From Streptomyces sp. PsTaAH-137 (GTDB lineage: Bacteria; Actinomycetota; Actinomycetes; Streptomycetales; Streptomycetaceae), in assembly GCF_003259365.1 (NCBI RefSeq), contig NZ_QLLY01000007.1:310001-374000 (forward strand): 64,000 nt of DNA. Reading direction: 5' to 3'. The notes under the pieces were generated by a model, which made no database searches, was not told the DNA's origin, and saw only the letters and a list, made by a program, of their open reading frames with translations. Each line of letters begins with the position of its first letter. Within the stretch, counting starts at the first letter, position 1. Both the position numbers and the translations under genes were made by a program. Positions 10,744 through 16,019 of the stretch are shown in pieces.

Positions 10744-10770
10744 GGGGTGTCAACCGAAGGTTGACACCCC
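10744..10770. promoter_or_regulatory. Operator 1: perfect 12-bp-arm inverted repeat
   Basis: Arm GGGGTGTCAACC (10744-10755) and its exact complement (10759-10770) around GAA. The right arm contains TTGACA, the -35 of the promoter for the Clp-N gene, so a bound protein would block RNA polymerase. Also 84 bp upstream of the divergent DHFR-like start. Confidence 0.75.
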
Positions 10771-10789
10771 TGCACTGTCAACCTACGGT
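10761..10789 (+). promoter_or_regulatory. Promoter of the Clp-N regulator, probably leaderless
   Basis: TTGACA (10761-10766), 17-bp spacer, TACGGT (10784-10789): a near-consensus housekeeping sigma promoter. The -10 ends 6 nt before the A of the ATG at 10796, so transcription should begin at or next to the start codon. No ribosome binding site is visible. Confidence 0.7.
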
Positions 10790-10793
10790 TGCC
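10777..10793. promoter_or_regulatory. Operator 2: CAACC-N3-GGTTG repeat over the -10
   Basis: GTCAACC, TAC, GGTTGCC: arms match at 6 of 7 positions and share the CAACC/GGTTG core of operator 1, with centres 28 bp apart. It covers the -10 element. Confidence 0.65.
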
Positions 10794-10795
10794 TC

Positions 10796-11539
10796 ATGAC
10801 GAATCCATCGGATGCCGTGGACACCACGGGCATGACCTCGTCCGTCCGCCTCGACGACCTCATCGACGCCATCAAGAAGGTCCACACCGACGCCCTGGAC
10901 CAGCTCCAGGACGCGGTCCTCGCAGCGGACCACCTCGGCGACGTCGCCGACCACCTCATCGGCCACTTCGTGGACCAGGCCCGCCGCTCCGGCGCCTCCT
11001 GGACCGACATCGGCAGGAGCATGGGCGTCACGCGCCAGGCGGCGCAGAAGCGCTTCGTGCCGAAGGGCTCGGAGAGCGACCTCGACCCCAGCCAGGGCTT
11101 CAGCCGCTACACCGAGCGCGCGCGGAACGTCGTGGTGAGCGCCCAGCAGGAGTCGCACGCCGCGAAGAACACCTCGATCGGCACCGCGCACCTGGTCCTC
11201 GGACTGCTCCACGAGCCGGACGGCTTGGGCGCCCGGGCGATCGTGGCGCAGAACGTGCCGCTCGACACCGTGCGGCAGGCCGCCGCGGACCGGCTGCCGG
11301 CGGCGGCCGACGAGTCCCCGGCGCTGATCCCGTTCGACGCGGAGGCCAAGAAGGCCCTGGAGCTGACGTTCCGTGAGGCCCTGCGCCTGGGCCACAACTA
11401 CATCGGCACCGAGCACATCCTGCTCGCGCTCCTCGAGCAGGAGAACGGCACGGGGGTGCTCTCGGAGCTCGGCATCACCAAGGAGGCGTCCGAGGCGGAC
11501 ATCACCGCGGCCCTCGCCGAGCTGACGAAGAACGCCTGA
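10796..11539 (+). CDS. HTH / Clp N-terminal-repeat protein (likely autoregulated regulator)
   Basis: 247 residues. Residues ~65-85 (WTDIGRSMGVTRQAAQKRF) form a helix-turn-helix, and residues ~105-240 hold two Clp-N repeats (RARNVVVSAQQES ... IGTAHLVLGLL and AKKALELTFREAL ... IGTEHILLALLEQ). There is no AAA+ ATPase or Walker motif, so it is not a chaperone; Clp-N domains bind peptides or adaptor proteins. A DNA-binding head on a substrate-recognition body suggests a regulator that senses proteotoxic or peptide signals. Two matching inverted repeats cover its own promoter, which fits autorepression (inference). The ATG at 10796 follows the -10 by 6 nt; ATG 10832 is a possible alternative. Confidence 0.82.
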   Translation: MTNPSDAVDTTGMTSSVRLDDLIDAIKKVHTDALDQLQDAVLAADHLGDVADHLIGHFVDQARRSGASWTDIGRSMGVTRQAAQKRFVPKGSESDLDPSQGFSRYTERARNVVVSAQQESHAAKNTSIGTAHLVLGLLHEPDGLGARAIVAQNVPLDTVRQAAADRLPAAADESPALIPFDAEAKKALELTFREALRLGHNYIGTEHILLALLEQENGTGVLSELGITKEASEADITAALAELTKNA

Positions 11540-11602: not shown

Positions 11603-13231
11603 ATGACTGACCGCTCAGGAACCCCCGCCCGGCCGGACGACCTCGTCGACATCGACGCCCTGGTCGACGCCTACTACACGAGGGAGCCCGACCCCACGCG
11701 CCCCGAGCAGCGTGTCGTCTTCGGCACGAGTGGCCATCGCGGCTCCAGCCTCGACGGCGCCTTCAACGAAAAGCACATCGCCGCGATCACCCAGGCCATC
11801 GTGGAGCACCGCACGGCCGAGGGCATCACCGGCCCGCTGTTCATCGGCCCCGACACGCACGCCCTGTCCGCACCCGCCCTCAAGACGGCGCTCGGGGTGC
11901 TCGCGGCGCACGGCGTGCGCGTCATGGCCGACGCGCACGGCGACTTCGTGCCGACGCCGGCGCTCAGCCACGCGATCCTGCGCTGGAACCGCACCGCGGG
12001 CGGCGGACCGGACCGCGCCGACGGCATCGTGATCACTCCGAGCCACAATCCGCCGCGCGACGGCGGCTTCAAGTACAACCCGCCGCACGGCGGTCCGGCC
12101 GACTCGACGACGACGGCATGGATCGCCGAGCGAGCCAACGAGCTTCTGGAGGACACCGGTTGGCAGGCGGCCACCGGTGACGACTCCGCCTGGGAGCCGT
12201 ACGACTTCCGCGAGGCCTACGTCGAGGACCTGAAGGACATCATCGACGTGGACGCCATCCGGTCCGCGGGCGTGCGGGTCGGCGCGGACCCGCTGGGCGG
12301 GGCGAGCGTCCACTACTGGTCGCGGATCGCCGAGCTGTACGGCCTCGATCTGACGGTGGTGAACCCGAAGACCGATCCCACCTGGCGGTTCATGACGCTG
12401 GACTGGGACGGCAAGATCCGGATGGACCCCTCCTCGGCGCCCGCGATGGCCTCCGTGCTCGCCCGCCGCCACGACTACGACCTGCTGACCGGCAACGACG
12501 CCGACGCGGACCGGCACGGCATCGTCACGCCCGACGCGGGTCTGATGAACCCGAACCACTATCTCGCCGTCGCCATCCACTACCTCTTCAGCCACCGCCC
12601 GCAGTGGTCGGCGTCCGCCGCGATCGGCAAGACCCTCGTCTCCAGCGCCGTGATCGACCGGATCGCCGCCTCCCTCGGCCGGCAACTCGTCGAAGTCCCC
12701 GTCGGCTTCAAGTGGTTCGTGCCGGGACTCGTCGACGGGTCCGTGGCCTTCGGTGGCGAGGAGAGCGCCGGAGCCAGCTTCGTCCGCAAGGACGGCAGCG
12801 TGTGGACCACCGACAAGGACGGCATCCTGCTCGCGCTGCTCGCCGCCGAGATCCTCGCGGTGACCGGGAAGACGCCGTCGGTGTACTACGCCGAACTCGC
12901 CGCCGAGCACGGCGCGTCGGGCGCCGCCTACGCGCGGATCGACGCCAAGGCGACCAAGGAGCAGAAAGCCCGCCTGGCGAAGCTCACCGGCGACGCGATC
13001 ACGGCGGACACCCTCGCGGGCGAACCGATCACGGCCCGGCTCTCCGAGGCGCCGGGCAACGGCGCGGCGATCGGCGGCGTGAAGGTGACCACCGAGAACG
13101 CGTGGTTCGCGGCGCGGCCCAGCGGCACGGAGGACGTGTACAAGATCTACGCCGAGTCGTTCCGCGGACCGGAGCACCTCGCCCAGGTGCAGAGCGAGGC
13201 CCAGGCGATCGTCGACGCGGCGCTCAGCTAG
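11603..13231 (+). CDS. pgm: Phosphoglucomutase (alpha-D-glucose specific)
   Basis: 542 residues, normal length for bacterial Pgm. Interconverts glucose-1-phosphate and glucose-6-phosphate, linking glycogen, trehalose and cell-wall sugar metabolism to glycolysis. Visible motifs: TPSHNPP with the phosphoserine S147, the metal loop DADADRHG, the sugar loop GGEESAG and the C-terminal phosphate loop [10 protein letters not shown]. Its 3' end overlaps the convergent HAD gene by 8 bp. Confidence 0.95.
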
Positions 13232-13910
13232 CGGAGGCCTCGGGCAGGCCCGGGACGTCTGCGACGCTGTCCACGACGTGGGTGTGCGGGTGGGCTTCGA
13301 GCTGCTCACGGGTCAGCTGGCCCGTGAGCACGCCCACGACGACACCCGCGCCCGCGTGCGTCCCGGCCTCCAGGTCGACGACCGTGTCACCGGCGACGAG
13401 CACCGTGCGCACGTCGAACACCCCGCACTTCTCCATCGCCCGGTGGATCATGTACGGGGCGGGACGGCCCCGGCGCACCTCGTCGGCGGTGACGACGGCG
13501 TCGAGATTGCCGCCCTCCTCGGCGGACCAGCCGAGCGAGGCGAGCAGCGGGAGCGCCACGTCGGCACTGAATCCGGTGGTCAGCGCGATCTTGACGCCGC
13601 GGGCGCGCAGTTCGTCGAAGGTCTTGTCGGCGTGGGCGATCGGCTCCGGCGGCACCTCCTCGTACCGCCGCTTGAGGTAGGTACGGAAGACCTCGTACTG
13701 CCGCTCCACGAGGTCCGCGTCGGGCGTGCCGCCGCCGATGCGGACGAGTGCGGCGATGGCCTCCCGCTTGTCGGTGCCCATCCAGGTCTGGAGGTCGGCC
13801 GGGTCGACGGTGACGCCCGTCGCCTCAACGGCGTGGCGCAGCGCCTCGTAGACGGCGCCGTGCTCCTCGATCGTCGTTCCTGCCATGTCGAAGACGGCGA
13901 GTTCGATCAC
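13224..13910 (-). CDS. Phosphonatase-like HAD hydrolase (PhnX-like)
   Basis: 228 residues. The nucleophile motif is D8-M-A-G-T-T, the DxAGT variant typical of phosphonoacetaldehyde hydrolase and its sister family TIGR03351, not the ordinary DxDx(T/V). K48 in [10 protein letters not shown] sits where the cap-domain Schiff-base lysine of PhnX is found. [10 protein letters not shown] has Arg/Arg where HADs usually carry Lys, also a phosphonatase trait. [14 protein letters not shown] is the C-terminal metal loop. C-P bond cleavage of a phosphono-aldehyde is the best hypothesis. The GTG start overlaps the stop of the GntR gene (GTGA), so they are translationally coupled. Confidence 0.85.
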
Positions 13911-14716
13911 TGGGTGTCCTTAAGCGTGTGGTGAGCCTGCGTGGGATGAAGTGACGTGTCGTCGGTGCGTTCCCGGGCCGCGACGGTGCGGCCCCCGACG
14001 GTGTTCTCGATGGTGAAGGTGGCCATCGAGGGCAGATAGCGGTCGTCGGCGTACTCGACGGGCGTGCCGTCGCGGGTGAACGCCAACCGTCGTACGCGCA
14101 GCAGGGGTTGGCTGGCCGCGATGCCGAGGAGGTCGGCGTCCTCCGGGTCCGCGGCGATGGCGTCGATGGTGTGGCGGGCGTGGTGGAGGTCGACGCCCCG
14201 GGCGGTGAGGGCCTCGTAGACGGAGCCCGCGTCGGGGTCGACAGCGAAGAGGTGGACTCCCGCGTCGAGCAGGAACGTCGAGCGCTCGACCATCGCCGGT
14301 ACGCCGTCCAGCTTGCGCAGCCGGATCAGGTCGACGACCGCCTCGCCCTCGTCGAGACCGAGGCGGGCCGCCGCCTCCGCGCCCGCCCGGCGGCGGGCCA
14401 CCTCGACGGTGAACTGGCCCGGAGTGCGGCCGATGGAGCGCGCCCACTGGGTGAACGACATGAGGGAGGCGAACGGCTGGGACGGGGTGACCCTGCGGGC
14501 CACGGGCGGCTTGCCCCGGCCGCCCACGAGGTGTCCTTCCGCGCGCAGCTGGGCCAGTGCCTGACGCACCGGACCGCGCGAGGTGCCGAACTCCTCGCAC
14601 AGCTGGGACTCACTGGGCACGGGCTGCCCCTCGGGCCACTCCCCCGCCTCGATCCGGCGCCGGAACTCGGCGCCGAGCCGCTGGTGCAGCGGCCCGCTCT
14701 CCGCACTTGTCTTCAC
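13907..14716 (-). CDS. GntR/HutC-family regulator (UTRA domain)
   Basis: 269 residues from a GTG at 14716. Winged HTH at ~10-75 (PSESQLCEEFGTSRGPVRQALAQL), then a UTRA effector domain (~90-255) ending SMATFTIENTVGG. HutC-type regulators bind small acids, amino acids, sugars or phosphonates. It is co-transcribed with the PhnX-like gene and divergent from the FAD oxidoreductase. A GTxTAxAC-type operator lies between them, and a perfect palindrome covers the start codon itself, so self-repression and control of the FAD gene are likely. No ATG fits: the HTH begins right after the GTG. Confidence 0.88.
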   Translation of the reverse strand: MKTSAESGPLHQRLGAEFRRRIEAGEWPEGQPVPSESQLCEEFGTSRGPVRQALAQLRAEGHLVGGRGKPPVARRVTPSQPFASLMSFTQWARSIGRTPGQFTVEVARRRAGAEAAARLGLDEGEAVVDLIRLRKLDGVPAMVERSTFLLDAGVHLFAVDPDAGSVYEALTARGVDLHHARHTIDAIAADPEDADLLGIAASQPLLRVRRLAFTRDGTPVEYADDRYLPSMATFTIENTVGGRTVAARERTDDTSLHPTQAHHTLKDTQ

Positions 14717-14720
14717 AAGT
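14705..14720. promoter_or_regulatory. Perfect palindrome over the gntR start codon
   Basis: ACTTGT, CTTC, ACAAGT: 6-bp perfect arms. It shares ACTTGT with the second site at 14790-14803 and overlaps the GTG start. Confidence 0.55.
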
Positions 14721-14790
14721 CGAGTTTTACAGTTCCGCCCCGAACAGGACAAGGTCCCGATTGATCGACAGCTGGTAAACACTCGGGAAA

Positions 14791-14803
14791 CTTGTATAGA
14801 CAG
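14791..14803. promoter_or_regulatory. HutC-type operator GTATAGAC
   Basis: CTTGTATAGACAG contains GTATAGAC (14794-14801), matching the GTxTAxAC core known for HutC-subfamily GntR regulators, within an imperfect TGT...ACA inverted repeat. It is 41 bp upstream of the FAD oxidoreductase ATG and 75 bp from the gntR start. Confidence 0.7.
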
Positions 14804-14843
14804 CCCTTGCTGGGAGCGGGCCGCGCTCCGCAGGCTGGTCATC

Positions 14844-16019
14844 ATGAGCATCGCAACAGCACTCTCCCCCGCCGCGGAGCTGCCGCGCGGCCACAGCGAC
14901 CTCGTCGTCGTCGGCGCCGGCATCGTCGGGCTCGCCCACGCCGTCGAGGCGGTGCGGCGCGGCCTCAGCGTCACCGTCGTCGAGCGGGACCGGCGTCCGG
15001 TGGGCGCGTCCGTGCGGAACTTCGGGCACTGCTGCGTCACCGCGCAGGAGGGCGATCTGCTCGGCCTGGCCGAGCGGTCGCGCACCGGCTGGCTGGACGC
15101 CGCGGGGAGGGCGGGGCTGTGGGCGCCGGAGGCGGGTGCCCTGGTGGTGGCCCGTTCGGCGACGGAGCTGGCGGTCCTGGAGGAACTGCGCCGGACGCGC
15201 GGCGCGGACGCGGTGCGGATGCGCACCCGGGACGAGGTGGCGGACACGCTCGGCCGGGCCGCGGACGCGCGCGACGACCTGGTGGGCGGCGCCCTGCTCC
15301 CGGCCGACCTGCGGGTGAACCCGCGCGAGGCGGCGCCACGGCTCGCGGCCTGGCTGGCGGAGCAGCCCGGGGCGACGGTGGTGTGGGGCACGAACGTGAC
15401 GGGGGTCGAGGAGGGCATCGTGCACACGGCCCGCGGCGACCTCCACGGCGAGCGGATCCTGCTCTGCGTCGGCCACGACCTGGACCGGCTGCACCCGGCC
15501 GAGGCGGAGGCGCACGGGATCGAGCGGTGCCGACTGTCGATGGCGCGGATCGCGGCACCGGAGGCGTTCCGCACGGACGCGGCGGTGCTCACCGCGACCT
15601 CGATGCTGCGCTACGACGCGTTCACGGCGACGCCGTCCGCGGCCGCGCTGCGCGCCGAGGTGACCGCGCACAGCCCCGAGTTGCTGGACGTGGTGGCCAA
15701 TGTGATGTTCACGCGGCTGCCCGACGGCACGGTCCTGGTCGGCGATTCGCACGCGTACGACGCGACCGAGATCCCCTTCCAGGACGAGGCGGTCTCGGCA
15801 CTGCTGCTGCGCGAGGCGGCCCGGGTCCTGGGCGTGCGCGAGGTGCGGGTCACCGAGCGCTGGCAGGGCGTGTACGCGAGCAGCCCGCGCGGACCGCTGC
15901 TCGTCCGGGACGTCGCGGCGGGCGTGCGGGCCATCTCGGTCACCTCCGGGGTCGGGATGACCCTGTCCTTCGGCCTGGCGGCCGCGACCTTCGACGGGGA
16001 CCTCAAGACCACCGACTGA
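14844..16019 (+). CDS. FAD-dependent oxidoreductase (DAO fold; resembles TIGR03364 phosphonate-linked family)
   Basis: 391 residues. Residues ~18-50 form a dinucleotide-binding beta-alpha-beta (DLVVVGAGIVGLAHAVEAVRRG ends with VVERD, so FAD). NFGHC near residue 60 and a C-terminal ISVTSGVGMTLSFGLA cofactor loop follow. Glycine/D-amino-acid-oxidase-type enzymes oxidise amines. Genes of family TIGR03364 are typically found beside PhnX-like hydrolases, as here. An aminophosphonate (2-aminoethylphosphonate or an N-methyl form) oxidised to phosphonoacetaldehyde would feed the neighbouring HAD enzyme; that link is inference. Divergent from the HutC regulator with an operator between. Confidence 0.85.
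   Translation: MSIATALSPAAELPRGHSDLVVVGAGIVGLAHAVEAVRRGLSVTVVERDRRPVGASVRNFGHCCVTAQEGDLLGLAERSRTGWLDAAGRAGLWAPEAGALVVARSATELAVLEELRRTRGADAVRMRTRDEVADTLGRAADARDDLVGGALLPADLRVNPREAAPRLAAWLAEQPGATVVWGTNVTGVEEGIVHTARGDLHGERILLCVGHDLDRLHPAEAEAHGIERCRLSMARIAAPEAFRTDAAVLTATSMLRYDAFTATPSAAALRAEVTAHSPELLDVVANVMFTRLPDGTVLVGDSHAYDATEIPFQDEAVSALLLREAARVLGVREVRVTERWQGVYASSPRGPLLVRDVAAGVRAISVTSGVGMTLSFGLAAATFDGDLKTTD

Follow-up and report, generated by a model that had tools for sequence, protein, structure and literature searches.

The window, a 64,000-nucleotide stretch of the Streptomyces sp. PsTaAH-137 genome, contains a rightwards-transcribed clpC2-type gene with two operator-like inverted repeats immediately upstream (Table 1). 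The first of these, O1, has arms at 10744-10755 and 10759-10770 that are separated by 3 nt and match without a mismatch, and the predicted -35 hexamer TTGACA lies inside it. A second copy, TGTCAACCTACGGTTG at 10776-10791, shares 88% identity with the first (10748-10763) at an offset of 28 bp and spans the predicted -10 hexamer TACGGT. The spacer between the two hexamers is 17 nt and the -10 element ends 6 nt before the ATG; the first-pass annotation had claimed a perfect 12-bp-arm repeat over the -35 element, a second copy over the -10 element and this 6 nt distance to the start codon, and each of these was recovered. A generic sigma-70 promoter scan reported no promoter in the region upstream of the gene, because TACGGT fits just three of the six positions of TATAAT. 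The looser actinobacterial form of the -10 element is TANNNT, with which TACGGT is compatible.

Table 1. Features of the clpC2-type locus, in window coordinates.
Feature	Coordinates	Strand	Description
Operator O1	10744..10770	.	Perfect 12-bp arms; core TGTCAACC-GAA-GGTTGACA at 10748-10766
-35 element TTGACA	10761..10766	+	Predicted; within O1
Operator O2	10776..10794	.	TGTCAACC-TAC-GGTTGCCT; O1 28 bp away; ends 1 nt ahead of the ATG
-10 element TACGGT	10784..10789	+	Predicted; at the O2 centre
clpC2-type gene	10796..11539	+	247 aa; ATG start; predicted leaderless
N-terminal dimer/HTH domain	10847..11059	+	Residues ~18-88; predicted HTH helices 69-76 and 80-87; recognition helix within TRQAAQKRF
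Clp_N sensor domain	11093..11530	+	Residues ~100-245; Q100, F102, F180 and E189 (cyclomarin contacts) retained

Pfam analysis of the protein identifies Clp_N in two stretches (E 6.5e-25), with no AAA family and no named HTH family at E<=0.001; in seven relatives, Pfam HTH families score below their curated cut-offs only. The HTH assignment is a prediction based on conservation and on the two helices seen in the structural model, and with that qualification the earlier description of an HTH joined to Clp repeats without an ATPase stands. The N-terminal domain matches PDB 8ADA, the Rv2667 N-domain (residues 4-72), with E 2.4e-31, the C-terminal domain matches ClpC2 C-domain structures with E values of 3.1e-49 to 3.6e-39, and the full model superposes on 8ad9 with Z 24.4 and 1.8 A over 149 residues. 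The matches listed for a fold search with the full model are all of the Clp_N type, so that the N-domain was hardly probed by it; the isolated N-domain model is weak (pLDDT 68.7), and a search with it placed Fis and other HTH proteins on top, none of them significant (best, Fis, E 0.58). Three PDB entries (9p2p, 9p39 and 9p4h) contain a ClpC2 C-domain chain that is near-identical by eye to the protein of another locus of the same genus (L058), and a literature search found no publication for 9p2p.

The mycobacterial ClpC2 (Rv2667) is an autorepressor that is released by cyclomarin, as reported from gel-shift (EMSA) and reporter assays and from a complex with cyclomarin, and it protects ClpC1 from cyclomarin (Taylor et al. 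2023, PMC10030653). In the parts of that paper cited here, the operators are given as CGTCAAC-N5-GTTGACG, located 1-2 nt ahead of the ORF and often repeated upstream; in many actinobacteria they are paired over a putative -35 and -10, and leaderless clpC2 transcripts are a sequence-based proposal of the same authors. Cyclomarin is contacted by Q94, F96, F172 and E181 (PMC10030653), which correspond to Q100, F102, F180 and E189 of the window protein. The window protein has an Rv2667-like N-domain followed by C-terminal Clp_N repeats without an AAA+ ATPase, and its operators can be written TGTCAAC-N5-GTTGACA and TGTCAAC-N5-GTTGCCT, the latter ending 1 nt from the ATG. Relative to the mycobacterial sequence, the outer C/G pair is T/A in O1, and the right arm of O2 carries two further changes. 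Rv2667 and the M. smegmatis ClpC2 share with the window locus the domain order, two pseudopalindromes over the -35 and -10, a predicted leaderless start and a Clp_N sensor whose contact residues agree, but they differ in the outer operator base (C there, T in the window) and in the degenerate right end of the window O2 (GTTGCCT). By these sequence features the gene is a textbook member of the ClpC2 family, of a design already described in mycobacteria, and we infer by analogy that the window protein behaves like its mycobacterial relatives. The idea of an HTH protein that acts on its own paired operators under ligand control through Clp_N was therefore right, and had already been published by Taylor et al.; the first-pass annotation gave no family name.

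Several other proteins resemble the window protein in part. The N-domain of the ClpC1 unfoldase has the same Clp_N sensor fold (Z ~18-23), but ClpC1 has a full AAA+ ATPase and no HTH, and none of the 15 clpC1 loci tested has an operator upstream of the match. The Streptomyces 'ClpC2' described in the cited part of PMC9765437 is a Clp-ATPase working with ClpP1P2 and shares only its name with the window protein. The RelI antitoxin (Rv2664) has a related HTH domain (PDB 9sdc, E 8.9e-07) but lacks Clp_N and partners the toxin RelS. Assignment of the window gene as a RelI-type antitoxin, a stand-alone HTH of ~85 aa beside a RelS toxin, was ruled out: the protein is 247 aa long, it contains Clp_N, and its neighbours are of the RibD_C and pgm types.

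The layout of the locus is well conserved. Strong ClpC2 matches (E 4.2e-90 or better) are listed in 48 of 61 genomes of the genus, one match being truncated where its contig ends, and in 12 of the 61 there is no match above the ClpC1 level among the matches listed; a further ClpC2 orthologue (G010:C2:63627-64321) is in two pieces in different frames, reflecting a frameshift or an assembly error. We compared the 59 best-scoring loci, comprising 30 of the 48 strong genus-search matches (window included) and 29 from a class search, and representing 58 different genes because one gene appears as two loci (L036 and L054). Both operators are present in 59/59 with at most three mismatches each, spaced by 28 bp (42 loci) or 29 bp (17 loci); in every case 17 or 18 nt separate the -35 from the -10 element, the end of the -10 element lies 6 nt (41) or 7 nt (18) from the start codon, and this codon is ATG throughout. 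A perfect YGTCA-N9-TGACR site is lacking in 5 of the 58 genes. The central bases of O2 start with TA in 59/59 loci and those of O1 in 0/59, which is the expected mark of a TANNNT -10 element embedded in O2, and this asymmetry is the best evidence for the predicted leaderless promoter.

Approximate copies of the repeat are not enriched: 16-mers with up to three mismatches occur 11 times in the window (11.4 expected), and those with up to two mismatches occur 53 times in the whole genome as against 72 for a reversed control. Across the 8.96-Mb genome, O1 is the sole exact YGTCAA-N7-TTGACR palindrome, and with the pair kept in 59/59 loci the operator pair exceeds chance expectation. Perfect inverted repeats can fold, and a site by itself does not reveal which protein binds it, and so the dyads could in principle form an RNA hairpin acting as an attenuator or terminator, or serve an unrelated regulator. 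We regard either as very improbable. The locus has no terminator-like site, Rfam gives nothing at its gathering threshold, and the predicted transcript start is downstream of both operators; dyads of this type precede HTH-carrying genes and not the Clp_N-only or ClpX genes tested, and the same motif is bound by the mycobacterial ClpC2 (PMC10030653).

A search of the window genome with the HTH domain gives a single match at E<=0.001, and this, together with the single exact palindrome, suggests that the window ClpC2 probably regulates its own gene only. A regulon beyond clpC2 itself was rejected, the operator pattern not being enriched over the reversed pattern. The neighbouring pgm and RibD_C genes were likewise rejected as co-regulated: among the flanks (mostly ~1.5 kb) of the 59 ClpC2 loci they are present at the window itself and at 0/58 others. 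A one-mismatch operator copy (G000:C6:504686-504701, locus L004) precedes a gene named by eye as GntR-type, and could be a second target or a chance occurrence. Elsewhere in the window, a leftwards-transcribed gene (13224-13910) encodes a PhnX-like phosphonatase-like hydrolase (TIGR03351) and a nearby rightwards-transcribed gene (14583-16019) encodes an HpnW-type FAD oxidoreductase (TIGR03364); on their family matches these look like part of a phosphonate-catabolism group.

The domain that reads the operator is a matter on which our analysis departs from the published account. Taylor et al. (PMC10030653) assign DNA contact to Clp_N arginines 185 and 189 and present the N-domain as a four-helix bundle that dimerises; applied to the window, Clp_N would read the operator through the equivalent residues R193 and R197, the N-domain would serve in dimerisation only, and ligand would block binding sterically or by rearrangement. 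The double arginine mutant shows weaker EMSA binding and 2.0-fold derepression, the conserved charged patch lies beside the cyclomarin site, and ClpC1 shows weak DNA binding of low specificity (PMC10030653); both arginines are conserved in the window protein. The N-domain dimer-interface mutant R57A gives 4.6-fold derepression, above that of the arginine mutant (PMC10030653). The 8ADA chain, in turn, ends at window residue 78, short of the predicted recognition helix at 80-87, so that the crystal could not have revealed this helix.

Four comparisons argue for the HTH as the reader. First, at two loci (L069 and L070) both proposed contact arginines are replaced, by D or E and by A, and each locus still has two operators. 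Second, YGTCA-N9-TGACR is absent within 330 nt upstream of Clp_N genes lacking an HTH (0/20, even allowing one mismatch), these being 15 clpC1 orthologues and five others from the window's genus and so not independent cases. Third, operators of this type are found with the ClpX-zinc-finger fusions described below. Fourth, operator position 7 follows the identity of helix residues 84-85: QK goes with C in 169/170 half-sites (53 loci) and WE with G in 106/106 half-sites (32 loci), although this covariation tracks one main family split and therefore reflects few evolutionary events. Operator positions 6-8 are outside the search pattern used for this tally, and divergent HTH+Clp_N relatives with a QQ helix show no single base at position 7 (C 11, T 5, G 4; six loci). 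The tallies of perfect sites and of position 7 omit L129 (short), the duplicates L086, L095, L106, L108 and L054, and also L177; L145 and L148 are still counted in addition to L115 and L122, which have identical listed sites. A perfect site is lacking in 6 of 12 divergent HTH+Clp_N relatives and in 16 of 19 distant relatives that are HTH-only or of other types; with a perfect site in 3/19, the HTH-only relatives were too divergent and were dropped as a test set.

By these comparisons the operator is associated with the HTH and not with Clp_N, and we infer that the HTH makes the base contacts; reading by the Clp_N arginines seems unlikely to us. Counting against the HTH is its relative RelI, for which the authors report no evidence of DNA binding in the cited part of their paper (PMC13284704). 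Since the published arginine mutant binds worse, the Clp_N domain matters for binding somehow, and it may contribute contacts of a non-specific kind or determine how the complex is arranged; a ligand could then act on this arrangement.

An HTH of the ClpC2 type is also found fused to a ClpX-type zinc finger. In three such proteins tested, Pfam identifies zf-C4_ClpX (E 6.2e-16, 4.3e-17 and 5.3e-11) and no Clp_N. Most of these genes (in L109-L128 and L139-L153) are preceded by paired sites resembling YGTCAGG-N5-CCTGACR, and a perfect YGTCA-N9-TGACR site is present at 32 of 41 loci and absent from nine. Upstream of ClpX-length genes there are 0/70 perfect and 1/70 one-mismatch sites (L163 and L202 dropped as short, L157 and L177 also excluded). 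A search of 197 genomes yielded 20 zinc-finger-HTH loci, 16 of them with a perfect site, although four of the 20 (L109, L111, L112 and L127) are genes from the fetch in which the motif was first noticed; one further match (G095:C27) falls outside this set. A count of dyads in 20 loci that made no use of the motif (L129 dropped as short) placed GTCAG-N7-CTGAC and the overlapping TCAGG-N5-CCTGA on top, at 12/20 each. A further 15 loci from named genomes (L139-L153) form an incomplete list, drawn from the 80 top-ranked of at least 594 candidate stretches. A perfect site lies within 200 nt at 14 of these 15 loci, and the remaining one carries two sites with one mismatch each; L145 and L148 are not independent, as they share sites with L115 and L122. 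The same scan at other positions in 19 loci gave 0/89,154 matches. Scanned but outside the 15 were L160, L177 and L214 (two ClpX genes and one without a clear start), and L157 was treated separately.

At L101 and L109 a distance of 27-28 bp separates the sites, and 2 nt lie between the end of the second site and the ATG; in other members the spacing ranges from ~20 to 38, and some have a longer gap to the start. The hosts of L139-L153 are Kribbella, Nonomuraea, Streptosporangium, Microbispora, Amycolatopsis, Arthrobacter, Mycobacterium sp. OAS707, two Phenylobacterium-labelled MAGs and two other actinobacterial MAGs. The Phenylobacterium-labelled MAGs (L149 and L152) place a zinc-finger-HTH gene with operators outside the Actinobacteria, which could be transfer or a binning error. 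Three members (L088, L082 and L085) have the reversed order, with the HTH first and the zinc finger last, and L088 has TGACAACCTAATGTTGTCG 2 nt ahead of its ATG. In Nocardia aurantia (L157) the zinc-finger protein has an altered recognition helix and an upstream operator was not found. The neighbours of seven of the 15 loci, inspected by eye on a crude ORF list, include nothing obvious. Among the papers listed by searches of an open-licence library, none describes such ClpX-zinc-finger regulators in its title or in the opening of its abstract. By analogy with ClpC2, the zinc-finger-HTH proteins may sense occupants of the ClpX N-domain.

We consider it very likely that the window gene encodes a ClpC2-type autorepressor whose HTH dimers act on the paired operators of its own predicted leaderless promoter and are released by ligand through Clp_N. 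A dimer would be bound at each operator through its N-terminal HTH, with the recognition helix (about residues 79-87) reading TGTCA-ACC half-sites, and the bound dimers would cover the -35 and -10 elements. The Clp_N domain would act as a copy of the ClpC1 substrate-recognition domain, such that a ligand lodged in it (cyclomarin in mycobacteria, here perhaps a peptide antibiotic or an unfolded protein) would release the DNA and induce clpC2, whose product would then soak up the ligand and protect ClpC1.

It is quite possible that, within the same circuit, the natural inducer is protein that has unfolded or been damaged, detected by a sensor of ClpC1 substrates, with cyclomarin-type antibiotics as chance ligands. 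Heat is also reported to induce the mycobacterial clpC2 (PMC10030653), and of three natural products compared in the cited part of PMC12913811, a cyclomarin analogue alone induced ClpC2 in M. tuberculosis, while ilamycin and ecumicin bind ClpC2 yet do not induce it. The retention of the cyclomarin-contact residues in the window protein speaks for the antibiotic, although a shared substrate pocket would explain it too.

Beyond the window, ClpC2 and the zinc-finger-HTH proteins probably belong to a wider class of autorepressors in which an HTH is joined to an ATPase-free Clp sensor, either Clp_N or a C4 zinc finger. Members with a canonical helix would read YGTCA-N9-TGACR pairs on their own promoters through the HTH, with QK and WE selecting ACC and GG as inner bases, and the ClpX-type proteins would be sensors of a kind not yet described, responding to ligands of ClpX or to compounds that target it, and perhaps acting as decoys for them. 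What is new here, and worth following, is that sequence comparison points to the HTH as the operator reader and to the joining of the same HTH to a ClpX-type sensor domain in a sister branch; the observation in the window already has an explanation. ClpC2 weakens the action of cyclomarin, an antibiotic whose target is ClpC1, and the way in which the switch is released depends on which domain reads the DNA; with this comparison, the published Clp_N assignment becomes open to a direct test. If the ClpX-type family is as proposed, protease sensor domains would have become self-inducing receptors more than once, and its members would be ready reporters for ClpX-binding compounds.
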